Shown here piece after piece: positions 32,676 to 40,532 of a stretch of 64,000 nt of DNA. Origin of the DNA: Litorivivens lipolytica. Its GTDB lineage: Bacteria; Pseudomonadota; Gammaproteobacteria; Pseudomonadales; Spongiibacteraceae. The notes under the pieces are model-generated. The model had not been told where the DNA came from. It ran no database searches and was given only the letters and a program-made list of their open reading frames with translations. Position 1 is the stretch's first letter, and each line of letters opens with the position of its first letter. A program made the translations under genes and the position numbers. The stretch is from assembly GCF_014191715.1 (NCBI RefSeq), contig NZ_JACHWY010000001.1, positions 434,001 through 498,000 on the forward strand, given 5' to 3'.

Positions 32676-33233
32676 TGTGGCATAAACCAGTGCGGTGATG
32701 GCAGCGAAGGGGTCGATCAGGTAATCCCAGAGATTGTTCGACTCCAGCAGGCCAAACTGGAAGGCGATCAGATCCAGACTGAGCACGGCTACAATCAGAT
32801 TGTGGCCTTTTGCCCAGGCCAGCACGCCAACAGCAATCGCTGCTATGGCCAGCAGATTGGGTTGGTAACCCCATTGATAGGGGTCGACAATGCCGGCGCC
32901 CAGACTCATGGGGTAGAACCAGAGAGCGACGAGTGCCATCAGTCCCGCCAGCCACTTCAGTTCACTCTGCGGCAGGTGTATTGATTCGCTGCGGGTAACC
33001 CGGCAGAAAGCCAGCCCAATTAATACCAGCGTAGATGTCAGACTAAACTCGCCAAACACGCCGCGCAGGTAAAACACCGGTGCCAGTCCGGCAATCGGAA
33101 TGCACAAAAATAATAGCGACAAGCCGTAGACCATCATCAGGCGCGAAGACAGAGCGGGACGGCGGCACAGCAGCAGGCTGAGCAGGGCGGCCCAGTGTAG
33201 GGCAGAGATTATCAGGCCGGGTGTCATATCCAT
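32451..33233 (-). CDS. Integral membrane protein of unknown function, C-terminus antisense to the symporter
   Basis: The frame encodes a 260-residue protein from the ATG at 33233 (AGGAG 11 bp upstream; an alternative ATG at 33227 overlaps the sialidase stop as ATGA). Residues to about 185 have seven hydrophobic segments (LIISALHWAALLSLLL, MMVYGLSLLFLCIPIAGL, LMALVALWFYPMSLG, LAIAAIAVGVLAWAKG, LIVAVLSLDLIAFQFGL and others). The remaining ~70 residues are hydrophilic and Gln/His/Gly-rich and lie wholly inside the last 75 codons of the symporter gene, opposite strand. I do not recognise the family. It follows the sialidase gene on the same strand. Confidence 0.65.
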   Translation of the reverse strand: MDMTPGLIISALHWAALLSLLLCRRPALSSRLMMVYGLSLLFLCIPIAGLAPVFYLRGVFGEFSLTSTLVLIGLAFCRVTRSESIHLPQSELKWLAGLMALVALWFYPMSLGAGIVDPYQWGYQPNLLAIAAIAVGVLAWAKGHNLIVAVLSLDLIAFQFGLLESNNLWDYLIDPFAAITALVYATSTLRAQWRAAAGQPQHHKHQPIADDGRVVQIKGHILSREQHVVAGENNPAGEKHGYGYTEPGVLGATATAKKAK

Positions 33234-34546
33234 TGGCTCAGCCACTCCTGAGAAAATGCGCGGTGCTTGATATAGGCTTTGTTCCAGGTGTACACGAGAT
33301 GAATAGTTCCGTCTGAAGCTTTGATTAGGTAGGGGTAGTCGTAGCGATAGCGACAGCCGCTATCGCTGCACAAGGCATCGCTGGCTGAGGCCAGATACTG
33401 TTCGCGCAAGCTATCCGTCAAACCTTCCTTGAGCATGGAGTCGTTGAGATCTTTTGCGAATTGTTCGTGGGGTACACGGCGCGGGGCGTTGCCATTGTCG
33501 CTATTGTCTTCTACCCGCATGATGGCATTCCAGGTCTGGCCGCGGTCTTCAGAAACCAGCAGGGTAAGGCGATTGCGCTCTTCTTCCGTGTCATTGGCTA
33601 CGGTCAGTATCCGGCCGCAGTCGAGCACCACAGCGGCCAGTGCTGAATTCGGGTTAAAGAAGCTCGCGTTTTCCGGCTCACTCCAGACTTGGCCGCTGGA
33701 GTCGCTGGAGGTCATGACCGCAGTAAACGGTGCATCGTCTCCGGTGTCACGGAGCAGCGCCAGTGCTTCGTTGTCGTCCACCGGCAGAATGACCGGCTGA
33801 ATGGCTTCACGACCAGTGGTTAAGCGGGTTTTATCGAGTACCCGGCCGTCCGGAGAAAGACGCAGCAGCTCACCAAATTTGCCGGCCATTTCATGGTAGA
33901 CGGGCAGGGCGATGGTGCCGTCTTCGTAGAGGTGGGGCGTTCCCTTTACCAGCGTGCTGAGGTTGAAGAAGGGCGAGGTAACCAGACGTTCTACCGAATG
34001 CCAGCTCTCGCCGTGATCATCTGAGAAAGCCACATTCAGCTGGCTGGTGGCCCAGCCGCCCAGCGAAACGGAAACGTAGTACAGGGCCAGGCGATCATTC
34101 TTGAGGCGGGTGATGACCGGATTGCCGAGCTTCTTGATATAGCGGCCGAGTTCCCGCTGGGTGAATTCCCGGGTAATCAGCGGGCGAACTTCACTCCACT
34201 CGTTGGTCGCGGGATCAAACCAGGCCCCATAGATGGCAACGTCTTTTGCGCCTTCGCGGCTGCCACCGAACCAGCTAGCCAGCAGTCGGCCATCGGCCAA
34301 TTCGGCCACCGAAGCGGAATGCACCATGTCAGTGGCATTTCGGCGTGAAACAATATTGGGGGCACCGATATAGACCTGCGCCGGGGTATCCTCTAGCACG
34401 GGCAAGTCGGCGGGTGTTTCATTGCGGTGCTGGGGCAGGGCGGTATCGTCGAAAACAGGCTGCTCTAGGCTGCCAGTGCCGCGAATCGTGATGCTGGCTG
34501 CGACAACGAGTAAAAGCAGCCCGATTAAGCTGTAACGGCTTGGCAT
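33224..34546 (-). CDS. Exo-alpha-sialidase-like BNR/Asp-box protein
   Basis: From the ATG at 34546 the protein has 440 residues: an N-terminal membrane-insertion/signal segment (YSLIGLLLLVVAASITI) and then a six-bladed beta-propeller. Three Asp-box motifs are visible, SDDHGESWHS, SSDSSGQVWSE and SEDRGQTWNA, and a sialidase-type start (NIVSRRN...MVHSASVAEL). An earlier ATG at 34600 in the same frame would lengthen the cytosolic end; neither start has a strong ribosome site. Family members release terminal sialic acids or related sugars, although some Asp-box proteins have lost activity. It faces a Na+/solute symporter on the other strand and precedes a membrane protein, so a glycan-uptake role is possible. 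Confidence 0.8.
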   Translation of the reverse strand: MPSRYSLIGLLLLVVAASITIRGTGSLEQPVFDDTALPQHRNETPADLPVLEDTPAQVYIGAPNIVSRRNATDMVHSASVAELADGRLLASWFGGSREGAKDVAIYGAWFDPATNEWSEVRPLITREFTQRELGRYIKKLGNPVITRLKNDRLALYYVSVSLGGWATSQLNVAFSDDHGESWHSVERLVTSPFFNLSTLVKGTPHLYEDGTIALPVYHEMAGKFGELLRLSPDGRVLDKTRLTTGREAIQPVILPVDDNEALALLRDTGDDAPFTAVMTSSDSSGQVWSEPENASFFNPNSALAAVVLDCGRILTVANDTEEERNRLTLLVSEDRGQTWNAIMRVEDNSDNGNAPRRVPHEQFAKDLNDSMLKEGLTDSLREQYLASASDALCSDSGCRYRYDYPYLIKASDGTIHLVYTWNKAYIKHRAFSQEWLSQWI

Positions 34547-34711
34547 GATTGAATACGATCCAGAAAGAATAGACTTACAGGCGCGCTTGTAATCGCGCAT
34601 TTATTGTACAGAGCGATTGTAGCGGAGTGTGACAGCTCTGTTAAGTCTTGTGAGCACATGGATTCGCACATATCCCCCGAAAACACTGGGCATTTTTTAG
34701 TCTGAACCGGT

Positions 34712-35710: not shown

Positions 35711-37348
35711 ATGGCCAATTTCCGACGCCACTTCCAGATAGTCGCCTTGTGCGCCAGCGCTTCGCTGGGCTTTTGGCTTGGGCCGGCTTCCCAAAGCCTG
35801 GCGCAACCGGGTGTACCCACCGGCAGCGCTGAACAGCGTGAACTCACCTTTATTCGCGAAAAAGTCAGCGGCTTGCTCGATATGGTGTTCGGCCGTTCTG
35901 CCTATCATCTGGAGCTGGCCACTATTGGTAGTGGCAAAAACAAAGGCCATCAGCTGGTGTTGGTGGTCGACAGTCGTTTTCGCGGGGAATATGCAGAAGC
36001 CGAGCTGCGCTCCCTGATTGCCAGCGTCGCAGGTCTCAATTTCAATGGCCCGGATCAACTGACCTTGTCGTCACTGCCCATGGCCTCGGCGCAGTCCCCG
36101 GTAGTGGAAACCGACACAGTGTCGTTTTCGCTGATGGCTCTGGTCGGATTAACCATGGCGGGTTTGGGCGCGGCGGGTGGTTGGTTATTGGCCCGGCGTC
36201 AGCGCAGCCCCTACCGCGATCAGCTGGATGCCCAGCTTGAAGCCCTGCACAAACTGGCAGAGGAAGACCCTTCGCGGGTCGCGCAAGTATTGCGACTCTG
36301 GCTGCGGCCGGCGGCGGCAACCAGCGCTGAAAGTGGAGGAATGACGGCGCGCGAGCTGGCGGCCATTATTGTGCTAAGCCTGCCAAAAGCCACGGCAGCC
36401 TCCGTATTGCGCCCGTTATTGCCCCGGGAATTACAGGCGATCGGCGACATCATGGTCAGAATCGCCAGAGTGAGGCGAACGGTCCTGCGCTATGCAGTCA
36501 AGCAGTTCTTTGAAGACGTACAGGAAGCGACGGGCTTTGGGGTGAAATCCGAGGCGGATTACCGAAGTCTGCTGGAGAATGCGCTGGGCGAACAGCGAGC
36601 GCAATTGATTGCCGGCGCGCCGGAACTGCAAAGTCATATACCCTTGCTGGAAAATCTGCGCTGGCTCGAAGCGGACACCATCGCTGAAATGATCGCCGGC
36701 GAACACCCCCAGATCCAGGCCATCGTCGTGGCCAGTCTCGACACGGAAAAAGCGACCCGCACTCTGGAATCCCTGCCCGAATCCACCCGGGCGGATGTTC
36801 TGTTGCGCGTCGCGGAGATCGACAAGTTGCAGCCGGCTGCAGCGGAGGCGGTATCGAAACTGATTGAATCCCGACTCGAAAGCATGACCAGTCAGCCCAA
36901 TCGCACGCCGCCGGGACAGCGCCAGGCAGCGGCAATACTGAAGTCCGTGACGGCGGACTGGTCGGAGGTATTACTACAGGAAGTTTATCGGCGTGATCAC
37001 CGGCTAGCCGCCCAGCTGCAGGAACACATGTTTACCATGGATGACCTGCTGGGTCTGACGAGCGCTGACTGGCAGAAAGTGGAGCAACAATTACCGGATG
37101 ATCTGCTGGCGCGTGCGCTATTGAGCTGCCGACCGGATACGCGAGAAGGGTTTTTGCAGCGTCTCCCGCGTGGCCGTGCACGGTCATTACGCCCGCTTCT
37201 GAAGCAATATGCGGGTCTCGGCGCCGAACTTATTCAGCAGTCGGCCAATGACGTTTTGCTGATGGTGCGTCGCATGGCGGCTTCAGGCGATATTGTGTTG
37301 AGTGGAGAATTGCGGCTGGCGAGCCCGGCAACGGCAGGTGAATCATGA
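35711..37348 (+). CDS. fliG: Natural FliF(C-terminal part)-FliG fusion protein
   Basis: The 545-residue protein joins two flagellar basal-body components. Residues 1-32 are a Sec signal peptide (ending SQSLAQ). Residues ~45-125 resemble the last ring-building region of FliF: KVSGLLDMVFG, LVLVVDSRF and ASVAGLNFNGPDQLTLSSLP. A membrane helix follows (138-161), then a segment like FliF's cytosolic tail, AEEDPSRVAQVLRLWLR (183-199), which in flagella binds FliG. From 211 a complete FliG starts: N domain, middle domain with the FliM-binding EHPQ (331-334) in IAGEHPQIQAIVVASL, and C domain with HMFTMDDL (439-446) to VRRMAASGDIVLS. FliF's N-terminal ring domains and beta-collar are absent. The torque-helix charges are not conserved. 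fliM overlaps by 4 bp. Confidence 0.9.
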   Translation: MANFRRHFQIVALCASASLGFWLGPASQSLAQPGVPTGSAEQRELTFIREKVSGLLDMVFGRSAYHLELATIGSGKNKGHQLVLVVDSRFRGEYAEAELRSLIASVAGLNFNGPDQLTLSSLPMASAQSPVVETDTVSFSLMALVGLTMAGLGAAGGWLLARRQRSPYRDQLDAQLEALHKLAEEDPSRVAQVLRLWLRPAAATSAESGGMTARELAAIIVLSLPKATAASVLRPLLPRELQAIGDIMVRIARVRRTVLRYAVKQFFEDVQEATGFGVKSEADYRSLLENALGEQRAQLIAGAPELQSHIPLLENLRWLEADTIAEMIAGEHPQIQAIVVASLDTEKATRTLESLPESTRADVLLRVAEIDKLQPAAAEAVSKLIESRLESMTSQPNRTPPGQRQAAAILKSVTADWSEVLLQEVYRRDHRLAAQLQEHMFTMDDLLGLTSADWQKVEQQLPDDLLARALLSCRPDTREGFLQRLPRGRARSLRPLLKQYAGLGAELIQQSANDVLLMVRRMAASGDIVLSGELRLASPATAGES

Positions 37349-38325
37349 GCGATATGATGTCGCAGGCGGAAATTGATGCGCTGTTGGAGCAGGTCGCTAC
37401 CGGCGAAGGTGAGCCCCGGCCTGTCACTGTCGCTCCCGGCGTTCGCAGTTACGACCTGAGCGCGCAGCAGCACATCGTCCGGGGGCGGCTCAGTGGGCTC
37501 GAAGTGTTGAACCAGCGGCTGGCTGCGCGCTTGCGCGCCGCTGCTGCGCCCACCGTACGGCAGGAAGTCGATGTCGAGCCCATGCCCGTCTCGATCAGAA
37601 AATACAGCGATTACGTGCATGGGCTCTATTTGCCCAGCAGCCTCAACTTATTAGAGATGAAACCACTCAGTGGCACTGCGCTGGTGATGGTCGATTCCCG
37701 GCTGGTGTTTCGTATTGTGGACTTTTTCTTTGGTGGTTCCGGGCGCCATACCAAAGTTGAGGGGCGTGAATTTACCGAGACGGAACGTCATGTGATTGAC
37801 GGTATTCTGCAGCGCTTTTACCGGGATATTGCTGACGTTTGGCACAGCGTTATCGATTTGCGGTGTGAGCCTCAAGGGGTCGAATACAACCCGGCCTCTG
37901 CCGCTATTGCCGGTTTAAATGACAACGTTGTGGTGTGTGGGTTTCGCGTTCAGATCGCAGGCGGTGGCGGCGAGGTTCATCTGGTGCTTCCGGAAGCCAT
38001 GCTGGAACCTGTGCGCGACAGTCTCGAAGCTGGTTCACGCCACTTGTCAACGGAATCGGAACGCCAATGGCGCCATTCCATCGAGCAGCAGCTAAGTCAG
38101 GTTGTGGTCAGTGCCCGCTGTCGGGTGGCAGAGATGGAGTTGAGCCTTAGGGAGCTTGACGCGCTGGAGATAGGTGATTTTCTACCTTTGAATCTGCGCC
38201 GGGGATCTGAGCTCACTGTGGCGGGCGTGCCGATACATCGCGTTCAAGCCGGGACTTTCGGCGGCCACTGGGCAGTAAAAATTGTGAATACAGATGTAGG
38301 CAAATCAGGAGCCGACAATGAGTGA
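37345..38325 (+). CDS. fliM: Flagellar motor switch protein FliM
   Basis: FliM (326 residues, near usual length) forms the middle ring of the rotor and receives phosphorylated CheY. The CheY-binding peptide is intact at the N-terminus: MSQAEIDALL at 5-14. The middle CheC-like domain has the GGXG loop that contacts FliG (FFFGGSGRH, 128-135), with FTETERHVIDGIL after it. The C-terminal SPOA domain (~245-315) that pairs with FliN ends LNLRRGSELTVAGVPIHRVQAG. Nothing appears broken. The start overlaps the fusion gene by 4 bp and the end overlaps fliN by 8 bp, so the three are translated as one unit. Confidence 0.95.
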   Translation: MSDMMSQAEIDALLEQVATGEGEPRPVTVAPGVRSYDLSAQQHIVRGRLSGLEVLNQRLAARLRAAAAPTVRQEVDVEPMPVSIRKYSDYVHGLYLPSSLNLLEMKPLSGTALVMVDSRLVFRIVDFFFGGSGRHTKVEGREFTETERHVIDGILQRFYRDIADVWHSVIDLRCEPQGVEYNPASAAIAGLNDNVVVCGFRVQIAGGGGEVHLVLPEAMLEPVRDSLEAGSRHLSTESERQWRHSIEQQLSQVVVSARCRVAEMELSLRELDALEIGDFLPLNLRRGSELTVAGVPIHRVQAGTFGGHWAVKIVNTDVGKSGADNE

Positions 38326-38692
38326 TTTCAAAACTCTGGGTGAGCAGTCGCAGCAGGGCGTGACGCTGTCGTCGACGCAACGCGATGCCGAGCGCTCCGG
38401 GGATACGCCGGTAGCGAGCAGTCGTGCGAGTCTGGAGCGGGTAATGGATATCCCGGTGCGAATCAGCATGGAAGTCGGCAGCGCGGAGATTTCGGTCCGC
38501 GATTTGCTCGATTTGAGGCAGGGCGCGGTTGTTGAGCTTGAGCGCCAGGCGGGTGAACCACTGGATGTGCTGGTCAATGGTTCCCTGGTTGCGCGTGGCG
38601 AGGTAGTTGTAGTTAACGATCAGTTGGGTATTCGGTTGACGGAACTTGTGTCGCCGGCCGATCGCGCCCGAGCTCTTAGCAAGGAAGAGTGA
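38318..38692 (+). CDS. fliN: Flagellar motor switch protein FliN
   Basis: FliN (124 residues) builds the base of the C-ring. After a polar, low-complexity first ~40 residues, the SPOA domain follows: ERVMDIPVRISMEVGSAEIS, VRDLLDLRQGAVVELERQAG, EPLDVLVNGSLVARGEVVVV and GIRLTELVS, all canonical. It overlaps fliM by 8 bp. In ordinary gammaproteobacterial clusters fliN is followed by fliO-fliP-fliQ-fliR-flhB-flhA; none of these is present here, and instead a 224-bp gap leads to a small membrane protein gene. Confidence 0.95.
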   Translation: MSDFKTLGEQSQQGVTLSSTQRDAERSGDTPVASSRASLERVMDIPVRISMEVGSAEISVRDLLDLRQGAVVELERQAGEPLDVLVNGSLVARGEVVVVNDQLGIRLTELVSPADRARALSKEE

Positions 38693-38772: not shown

Positions 38773-38793
38773 TATACTGCCTGTAAGTTACAG
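38773..38793 (+). promoter_or_regulatory. TATACT box followed by a perfect CTGTAA-G-TTACAG palindrome
   Basis: TATACT (38773-38778) is followed two bases later by CTGTAA-G-TTACAG (38781-38793), a perfect inverted repeat placed where the transcription start would be. The -35 position is unconvincing. It may be a repressible promoter for the small membrane protein gene that starts at 38917. Confidence 0.35.
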
Positions 38794-38916
38794 CGATTTC
38801 CTACGCACGTACTGTCAGTAGTCTAGTCATTAACGCGTTTTTCAGTACCTGAGGCGTCGGTGCTGCCTTCCAGATAATAACGAGCCCCGTTTTCGATGGG
38901 GTACGGAGAGGCAAAC

Positions 38917-39417
38917 ATGAAGCGTCTGTTTTACCTGACGGAATCCGCAGATTTTGCGGGCCAGGTGGCCAAACAATTAGTGAGAGTGCCCGGGTTCTCA
39001 CCCCGGCGCTTGCATGTCATTGGTAAAGACCTGAATGCGCTTTACGAGCGGTGTCTGCCGGTGCCCGCGTCATGCTTGCAGAAAGATTTCCTGCGCGGCG
39101 CGGAATATGGCGCGTTATTGGGTGGGGCATTTTCGGTCCTGCTACTGGTGTGGTTCTGGTTCTTCGCCGAGTTGCCCGCCAGCGCGCTAAATTGGCTGTT
39201 ATTAGGTGTCTCCGGGGGCTTGGCCGTGGGGTGCGCTTTTGGCTGGTCGCGGGACAACGCTTTGATTCGACACTTTCACGAGGACCTTGTGGAGGGGAAG
39301 TTTCTGCTTATTGTCGACGTCACCGCGCTCGACGAGTCTGCGGTTCGCAGACTTCTGGCGCATCTGCCCATCGAGCCAGCTGGAGAGAGTCGCGCTCTGG
39401 TTCCGGCCTTGATCTGA
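38917..39417 (+). CDS. Small two-helix membrane protein of unknown function
   Basis: A 166-residue protein starting MKRLFYLTESADFAGQVAKQL, with CGGAGAGG before the ATG. Residues 1-60 and 115-150 look like two halves of a small alpha/beta cytosolic domain (LHVIGKDLNAL, GKFLLIVDVTALDESAVRRLL). Between them are two adjacent membrane helices with a Gly-rich turn (GAEYGALLGGAFSVLLLVWFW and WLLLGVSGGLAVGCAFGW). The layout resembles stress-type DUF1269/GsiB-like membrane proteins with a Gly-zipper hairpin, but I cannot name the family. It lies between fliN and cheY, exactly where a normal cluster would have the export and regulatory flagellar genes, and is closed by a strong terminator. Confidence 0.7.
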   Translation: MKRLFYLTESADFAGQVAKQLVRVPGFSPRRLHVIGKDLNALYERCLPVPASCLQKDFLRGAEYGALLGGAFSVLLLVWFWFFAELPASALNWLLLGVSGGLAVGCAFGWSRDNALIRHFHEDLVEGKFLLIVDVTALDESAVRRLLAHLPIEPAGESRALVPALI

Positions 39418-39501
39418 TTGACTGAAGAAGTGGTACGCAGCACTGCCCATCGGCAGGCGCTCCGTCCAGGTTGACGCCAGTTGGCGTTCATGTGTGAAGT
39501 G

Positions 39502-39528
39502 GGCCGCCCTTTGGGCGGCCTTTTTTTT
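39502..39528 (+). terminator. Strong rho-independent terminator
   Basis: GGCCGCCC (39502-39509), loop TTT, GGGCGGCC (39513-39520), then eight T. It ends the plus-strand unit that includes the small membrane protein and isolates cheY, which must have its own promoter. Confidence 0.92.
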
Positions 39529-39544
39529 ATCGGGTAACGAAAGA

Positions 39545-39645: not shown

Positions 39646-40047
39646 ATGAAAATACTGGTTGTAGACGATTTTTCGACCATGCGCAGAATCATAAAAAACC
39701 TGCTGCGCAAGTTGGGTTATGAACAGGTGGATGAAGCTGAAGATGGTGCCAAAGCCCTGCCGATGCTGCACGGCGGCGGTTATGATTTTCTGATCACGGA
39801 CCTGAATATGCCGGGAATGTCCGGGCTCGAATTGCTGAAGGCGGTGCGCAATGATGCGAGTCTAAGCAGTCTGCCCGTGCTCGTTGTGACCGCTGATGCC
39901 AACCGTGAGCAGATTGTGGAGGCAGCACAGGCCGGCGTTAACGGGTATGTGGTCAAGCCTTTCACTGCAGCTGTTTTGCAGGAAAAGATAGAACAGATTT
40001 TCAGCGGCAAGAGCAGCACTGCTACTAGGGAGAGTAACCGCCCGTGA
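39646..40047 (+). CDS. cheY: Chemotaxis response regulator CheY
   Basis: The 133-residue single-domain receiver has every catalytic residue: acidic pair Asp7/Asp8 ([11 protein letters not shown]), phospho-acceptor Asp52 (ITDLNMP), Thr82 (VTADA), Lys104 and the switch tyrosine Tyr101 (YVVKPF). The sequence [19 protein letters not shown] is specific for flagellar CheY rather than generic receivers. It would bind the intact N-terminal peptide of FliM when phosphorylated. The start at 39646 (MKILVVDD) fits the family; the frame's earlier start adds unrelated residues. The next gene, a histidine phosphotransfer protein, overlaps it by 4 bp (GTGA). No cheZ or other phosphatase follows. Confidence 0.92.
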
Positions 40048-40532
40048 GCCAGTCATTTCTGTCTGAGGAAGACGCTGAACTCCGCGAATTTTTTGCTGAG
40101 GATGCGACGGAACTTTTGGTTGAGGTTCGGGAAATTCTTGCGTCCATGTTGCGCGGTGAGGCAACGGAAGGAGGGCTTGAGAGCGTCCGTCGGGGCTTTC
40201 ATAATCTGAAAGGCGCTGCTATGAGCCTGCCGGGCTGCGACAGCTTGGAATCGTTTACCCGGCTGTCGGAAACACTCGCGACCGCGCTGGAGCAGGGCGT
40301 TATTGCCGCCAATCCCGAAGTCCTGACCCTGCTAGATGAAGCGGCCGCAGCGATTCAGGATTTGCTGGCGGAACATGCGATGGAGCCACGCTTGCCCCTC
40401 TTGCCCAATCAGCTGGTGATGGCTCTGATGTATTGTCAGGATAAGCTGGTCGGCATAGACGCTAGCCTGGATGGCGCTCAGGCACCGGTTTCACTGGAAG
40501 AGCCGCTGCGCCAATTTCGGGCAGCAAACTGA
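40044..40532 (+). CDS. Stand-alone Hpt protein resembling an isolated CheA P1 domain
   Basis: A 162-residue protein with GTG start inside the cheY stop and AGGGAGAG upstream. Residues ~10-110 form a helical phosphotransfer domain: [20 protein letters not shown], then the phospho-His motif FHNLKGAA (His53), and [12 protein letters not shown] and [15 protein letters not shown]. The [10 protein letters not shown] start and the helix pattern are those of the P1 domain of CheA. Nothing like the P2-P5 domains (dimerisation, ATP-binding kinase, CheW-like) follows; the last ~50 residues are unassigned. It could take phosphate from a distant kinase and pass it to the adjacent CheY. It sits where cheZ/cheA lie in Pseudomonas-like clusters. 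Confidence 0.82.

Follow-up and report, generated by a model that had tools for sequence, protein, structure and literature searches.

Between fliN and cheY of a reduced flagellar gene cluster in Litorivivens lipolytica lies a gene for a membrane protein with two predicted helices, and the question raised by this locus is what such a protein does among the proteins of a flagellar switch. The stretch of DNA analysed here (the window) comprises 64,000 nucleotides of contig NZ_JACHWY010000001.1, and all coordinates refer to it unless another contig or locus is named. Our preferred answer, held with about even confidence, is that the protein may be the membrane subunit of a reduced second ring, i.e. 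of a CheY-responsive C-ring scaffold devoid of stators. The gene and its immediate surroundings are as follows:

38917..39417, + strand: two-helix membrane protein gene (P0001), 166 aa; beta-alpha-beta, hairpin 58-83/90-111, beta-alpha-beta
38905..38911, + strand: likely ribosome-binding site GGAGAGG ahead of the ATG of the two-helix gene, read from the sequence
38781..38793, strand not given: palindrome CTGTAA-G-TTACAG (CTGTAAGTTACAG), not seen in the aligned stretch of the congener G001

The gene is separated from fliN (38318-38692) and cheY (39646-40047) by gaps of 224 and 228 nt, respectively. An earlier note on this DNA had called its product unrecognised, and the label is right, because the protein has no Pfam or NCBIfam match at E≤1. 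The split alpha/beta domain around a membrane hairpin that it described is borne out as a prediction: the AlphaFold2 model, for which the input was the window protein together with 23 relatives from named genomes, has a mean pLDDT of 87.4 and a pTM of 0.75, and places strands at 2-8 and 32-35 around a helix at 11-22, the two long helices at 58-83 and 90-111, and strands at 129-135 and 153-158 around a helix at 140-148. As for the proposal that the gene has its own promoter with a palindrome, the palindrome at 38781-38793 is indeed there, as the sole exact copy within the window, but the promoter scan near the gene returned nothing (0.4 expected). The aligned stretch of G001 does not contain the palindrome, but that upstream alignment does not rise above shuffled sequences. 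In Rfam, nothing exceeds its gathering score between 38600 and 39700, the best match being SorY with 28 bits against 111. A three-hairpin element with a terminator at its end (39429..39532, + strand, z -3.7) follows the gene and is a candidate small RNA or cheY leader; no Rfam family reaches its gathering score on it. It is conserved in G001, where, as judged by eye, the stems differ on both sides.

The reduced C-ring cluster and its site

The neighbours of the two-helix gene that carry the argument are the following:

35711..37348, + strand: C-terminal third of FliF (residues ~43-204) fused to FliG2 (211-531); EHPQ kept, 0/5 torque charges
37345..38325, + strand: FliM2 with the CheY-docking peptide MSQAEIDALL (domain matches and peptide alignment)
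38318..38692, + strand: FliN2 (Pfam/NCBIfam)
39646..40047, + strand: CheY2, active-site D7, D8, D52, T82, Y101 and K104 present (Pfam/NCBIfam and residues)
40044..40532, + strand: Hpt phosphotransfer protein with an HNLKG motif (Pfam and motif)

A second FliM of this kind was found in 20 of the 21 Spongiibacteraceae genomes sampled from Zhongshania, Spongiibacter and the genus of the window (three genomes); the remaining one, G002 (70% complete), yielded no FliM at all. The conserved gene association around this module is real. The two-helix gene directly follows fliN2 in 18 of the 20 reduced clusters, namely in 17 of the 18 from Zhongshania and Spongiibacter and in the window, and is missing from the clusters of G012 and of the congener G001. 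Among named loci it is linked to fliN2 in 10/10 from Spongiibacteraceae as against 0/21 from elsewhere. The cluster profile scores the 18 proteins encoded after fliN2 at 164-306 bits, with the window protein, itself a row of that profile, as the lowest, and attains at most 104 bits outside Spongiibacteraceae in 280 genomes of the order sample. The suspected tie to a reduced C-ring is thus supported.

In the sister genera the genes run in the order ttcA, FliF-tail protein, FliG2, Hpt, FliM2, FliN2, two-helix protein, FlhG-like ATPase, CheY2, long Hpt, ccmA (ttcA and the ccm genes were named by eye), with the FlhG-like gene and the first Hpt each present in 18/18 clusters. All 17 sister-genus copies of the two-helix gene begin 2-89 nt after fliN2, and in 14 of them the stop codon shares 4 nt with a putative flhG2 start, although these starts are not proven; the other three allow longer flhG2 overlaps or, in two cases, a short gap. 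The first Hpt is missing from the window cluster, as is an FlhG2 next to the two-helix gene.

The FliF-FliG fusion noted next door is real, its FliG part being recognised by Pfam and its FliF part by hhalign, which identifies the remnant as the S-ring/tail third (probability 97.2, E 3e-11). The expected co-occurrence of gene and fusion fails, since just 3 of the 20 clusters, those of G001, G008 and the window genome (G000), carry the fusion, and one of these, G001, does not have the gene. The idea that the gene tracks the fusion was therefore rejected; it tracks the C-ring cluster. A separate mini-FliF ORF is present in 12/20 clusters, and five have neither the ORF nor the fusion. In four of these (L063, L065, L068 and L078) the FliF stub is replaced by hydrophobic helices at the N-terminus of FliG2, which may represent a second kind of membrane anchoring, and the fifth (L071) has neither feature. 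The full-length profile of the FliF remnant matches 8 of 13 Spongiibacteraceae genomes at E≤1.3e-24 and none of 280 others in the order sample, eight of which match over 31-102 C-terminal positions (E 2.9e-8 to 6.1e-7). Modelling of the mini-FliF gave a poor structure (pLDDT 66.5), the best fold matches of which include FliF S-ring chains interspersed with unrelated ones.

Judged by gene content and order, the cluster occupies the site of an ancestral flagellar and chemotaxis island near ccmA. Of seven sampled islands from other families, five have ccmA downstream of their flagellar genes, four of these five with a CheY (E≤4e-53) before it, and in the other two no ccmA was found within 60 kb. 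The reduced cluster lies at the same site near ccmA with its surviving genes in the same order, so that the earlier note was correct, with respect to the old island, in placing the two-helix gene where flagellar genes had been lost. This does not extend to the cell, which still has a flagellar set: a large canonical cluster of another lineage is present at C1:640-667 kb of the same genome, where FliF and FliG were found by phmmer with E. coli queries and FliM with the window FliM2, the remaining genes being named by eye from translations and the hook and rod (flg) genes lying outside the look-up. Loss of the flagellum was accordingly discarded; the flagellum was replaced. In the midpoint-rooted FliM tree, which includes 5 of the 20 FliM1 found and 6 FliM from the 7 islands, FliM1 forms a separate branch (100/100), while FliM2 forms one clade (99/98) placed with FliM of other families and of E. 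coli. FliG2 is likewise one clade (SH-aLRT 96) in a quick search with long branches, two of them within FliG2. In the stretch bounded by ttcA and ccmA, no export, rod, hook or filament genes were seen in the window.

The two-helix protein itself is, by profile searches, a member of a wide gammaproteobacterial superfamily, found in 38 of 57 genomes at E≤1e-3 (its own genome included) and, across the order, in 141 of 293 at E≤1e-12. Within the flanks examined, a fliG, fliM or fliN link is absent in all 21 named superfamily loci outside Spongiibacteraceae, which come from Kangiella, Alcanivorax and uncultured bacteria. The earlier note had held that its proposal would be refuted by wide occurrence in genomes lacking the fusion, without a neighbourhood link to fliN or cheY. 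The wide and unlinked superfamily would by itself refute it in this way, but the Spongiibacteraceae subfamily is tightly linked to the cluster. Phage records contained no two-helix relative. The genome of the window has a second superfamily copy at C3:492229, beside genes named by eye as oxidase genes. Oxidase genes also adjoin unlinked relatives in 3 of 46 short loci (L011, L030, L110) and in 4 of 23 further loci (L144, L153, L154, L155), and the unlinked relative at L129:8230-8787 adjoins cytochrome c oxidase genes, which would fit an ActD-like fold.

Is the window gene the same gene as that of the sister genera? We consider orthology rather likely, mainly on the basis of position. The window gene has the site, strand and order of 17 of the 18 sister-genus clusters; the best tree joins its long branch to the cluster proteins (77/88), with a warning from the program that two long branches meet; and a grouping with the paralogues of its own genome is rejected (p-AU 0.0076). 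The alternative is that a superfamily member arrived independently in the fliN-cheY gap and has no part in the C-ring. This would account for the scores of the window protein, which are 47 bits to the cluster profile and 50 to the own-family paralogue but 85 to a profile of non-family relatives built without the cluster proteins L142 and L143. A grouping with the unlinked L002 and L006 is not rejected either (p-AU 0.33), and the window gene has its own spacing and a downstream terminator. In addition, the fliN-cheY gap of G001 holds no gene, and its downstream stretch is homologous to the window (score 71; shuffle maximum 49), the upstream stretch giving no significant score (32; shuffle maximum 46). 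The spacing of 224/228 nt, the lack of an FlhG2 beside the window copy, the tree support of no more than 77/88 and the preference of 85 over 47 bits for unlinked relatives also speak against our preferred reading. Given the shared site, the best tree and the rejected paralogue origin, an independent arrival nevertheless seems improbable to us. The extra copy in G001 (C16:63226) was considered as a moved orthologue and ruled out, since it groups with the general paralogues.

Motifs of the second ring and its putative phosphorelay

C-rings are known as rotors, and the motifs of this one can be compared with those of a ring that turns. We take the torque positions of E. coli FliG to be K264, R281, D288, D289 and R297. 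The full set occurs in 0 of 20 FliG2, in an alignment that is gappy over this region: none of the charges is kept in 16, and a single one in four (Arg at 264 in L072, L073 and L078; Arg at 297 in L067). With conservative swaps allowed, the set is kept in 18/18 FliG1 and in 22/22 FliG of other families, two loci without FliG standing outside these counts (L118 among the 19 FliG1 loci and L043 among the 23 from other families). The role of the torque-helix charges is described in the available text of PMC7355467. MotB is single in 19 of the 21 genomes and was not found in G002 and G020. The second C-ring probably cannot turn.

Other motifs have been retained. The EHPQ sequence, which the available part of PMC6290876 gives as part of the FliM-binding motif of FliG, is present in 20/20 FliG2. 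Likewise, the CheY-binding peptide LSQxE[IV]DALL, a pattern matched against E. coli FliM and beginning MSQ in the window, occurs in 20/20 FliM2; a role of the FliM N-terminus in CheY binding is described in the same portion of PMC7355467. Among the proteins of the putative relay, Hpt1 has HxxKG in 18/18 sister-genus clusters, and the long downstream Hpt has HTxYG instead in 16 of 18, the motif not being found in the other two. Of 20 CheY2, 18 keep the phospho-Asp, and 9 have a replacement at the second position of the acidic pair; in clusters L069 and L067 the phospho-Asp has given way to Glu in one and to Ala in the other. The replacements in CheY2 and in the long Hpt count against our preferred reading. 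The CheY2 and Hpt of the window have all relay residues.

The whole cluster might alternatively be a slowly decaying relic of the replaced flagellum, with the membrane gene as a passenger. The absence of the gene from G001 and G012 would be consistent with decay, as would the five clusters devoid of both mini-FliF and fusion (L063, L065, L068, L071, L078), the two long FliG2 branches and the erosion of CheY2, which has lost the phospho-Asp in 2/20 clusters and part of the acidic pair in 9/20. However, under neutral decay one would hardly expect EHPQ and the CheY peptide to survive in all 20 clusters over two genera, HxxKG to persist in every Hpt1, and the overlapping or closely packed arrangement of the genes to be maintained, as they have been. 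We therefore regard a relic as unlikely.

Alternatively, the second ring may tune the working flagellum, either by titrating CheY2~P or by forming mixed C-rings, in which case the two-helix protein would be a brake or docking factor. The chemotaxis genes could be read in this way. The genome of the window has three CheW-domain matches, all in one locus that we take to be Pil-Chp-like, and since the matches are confined to such a locus, the CheW-domain search found no flagellar-type CheA in this genome or in G001. Both of these genomes have a flagellar gene set, with the CheW-domain matches in one Pil-Chp-like locus per genome. Moreover, the 15 other receiver matches in the window genome (E≤1e-10) are just 27-35% identical to CheY2, and the FliM1 of the window genome and of G001 have near-intact peptides, LDQEEIDALM and LEQEEIDALM, respectively. 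Yet among five FliM1 sampled the peptide is degenerate in two (L113, L117) and a third has a doubtful start, whereas FliM2 is intact, and in the sister genera 12 of 18 genomes encode, besides the cluster, a CheA-CheW pair elsewhere. Tuning of the working flagellum thus appears to us distinctly unlikely.

Relatives of known fold

The comparison of the two-helix model with solved structures gave no Foldseek match at E≤0.001. The best matches are chains of ActD (PF11821; 6btm_D, 6lod_D, 8k9e_D), which span the whole chain with E 0.0076-0.025, probability 0.85-0.92 and TM 0.3-0.4. Structure comparison with ActD gives Z 7.6-8.0 over 144-150 residues (rmsd 8-9), and the soluble ferredoxin-like domain 6v42 scores level with it (Z 8.2 over 89 residues). 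As described in the accessible text of PMC5928083, ActD of Alternative Complex III has a pair of membrane helices between beta-alpha-beta units, which together make up one four-stranded sheet, with both termini cytosolic, and the predicted model shares this architecture. Sequence comparison points the other way. The Pfam model of ActD misses the window protein and reaches 2 of 24 relatives (best E 0.034), below several chance-looking matches to other membrane families, and no Alternative Complex III genes were seen near the window gene. The DUF1269 model does not match the window protein either and finds 2 of 24 relatives (best E 0.089), and that of YflT finds 1 of 24 (E 0.16), again without the window protein. 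A search of PDB sequences with the family profile returned just designed barrels and unrelated chains. In many relatives the second helix carries an AWEGG motif; the window protein is without the Trp-Glu and has Val at the Glu position. ActD has a conserved Glu in its second membrane helix, to which the Glu of this motif may correspond. ActD is thus the nearest solved architecture, and the window protein may be termed an ActD-shaped membrane piece at most, membership by sequence having failed. That it works as ActD does in a respiratory chain, its position after fliN being historical, is in our opinion very unlikely: the full-length ActD matches and the unlinked relatives beside cytochrome oxidase genes would fit, but most loci examined have no oxidase gene, nor does the cluster, where the adjacent ccm genes are part of the ancestral site, and the window copy lacks the Trp-Glu of helix 2.

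A possible role for the two-helix protein

A membrane subunit of a stator-free, CheY-responsive scaffold could operate as follows. The module keeps the S-ring/tail piece of FliF, presumably as an anchor, together with FliG2, FliM2, FliN2, CheY2 and Hpt, to which Zhongshania and Spongiibacter add the FlhG-like ATPase and a second Hpt. From the motifs and from what is known of these families, the ring proteins would assemble, Hpt would phosphorylate CheY2, and CheY2~P would dock on FliM2; the ring would then change state without rotating and so serve as a switch or scaffold anchored in the membrane. Both ends of the split ferredoxin-like domain of the two-helix protein are predicted to be cytosolic; the protein would sit at the membrane beside FliN2 and, as gene overlap and topology suggest, relay the state of the ring. 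Its target in the sister genera may be the FlhG-like ATPase, the reading frame of which overlaps its own, and in the window genome perhaps the remaining canonical FlhG. Against this reading, G001 and G012 keep the cluster but not the gene, so that the two-helix protein is dispensable to the ring itself. The output is likely to be spatial: it might mark a pole, set the number of flagella or select the site of division. This leans on Campylobacter jejuni, in which, according to the abstract of PMC3228812, FlhG acts with proteins of the motor and switch complex to inhibit division at the poles.

Comparison with known systems brings out both likeness and difference. With the flagellar switch complex (FliF tail, FliG, FliM, FliN, CheY) the cluster shares gene order, domains, EHPQ and the CheY-docking peptide; it differs in the loss of the torque set, in that no second MotB was found, and in that no export, rod, hook or filament genes were seen from ttcA to ccmA. 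The C. jejuni system resembles it in engaging a switch complex and FlhG in a spatial task other than swimming; there, however, the ring belongs to the working flagellum, and the abstract of PMC3228812 does not mention a two-helix protein. The hat-shaped inner-membrane structure described in PMC9380563 is also a membrane structure tied to flagellar proteins and lying beside the flagellum, and it persists in Helicobacter pylori mutants without FliG or FliF. That structure is tied to the export apparatus, whereas the Spongiibacteraceae cluster contains no export gene.

A small membrane protein beside a second switch ring that has shed the charge pattern for rotation but retained its docking site for the chemotaxis signal suggests that part of an old flagellum serves these marine bacteria in a task other than swimming. 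More tentatively, and with clearly less than even confidence, we propose a rotor-derived, CheY-gated signalling organelle that would exist alongside genes for a functional flagellum of another lineage: a second, stator-free switch ring built from an S-ring stub, FliG2, FliM2 and FliN2, controlled by Hpt and CheY and coupled to the membrane and to an FlhG ATPase by a protein of ActD fold. No such module was found in the titles or abstract openings of the papers listed. As these listings cover subscription literature thinly, this absence is weak evidence that the module is undescribed. With CheY docking and FliM contacts kept and the torque set lost, in 20 genomes that have other flagellar genes, the switch would here be separated from the motor. 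The module thus lets one ask, in a natural setting, whether the switch complex does anything by itself and in what way flagella become other machines, and the two-helix protein readily suggests itself as a new part. Upstream of ttcA, the window also encodes an exported sialidase-like protein, recognised by eye, at 33224-34600 on the minus strand.
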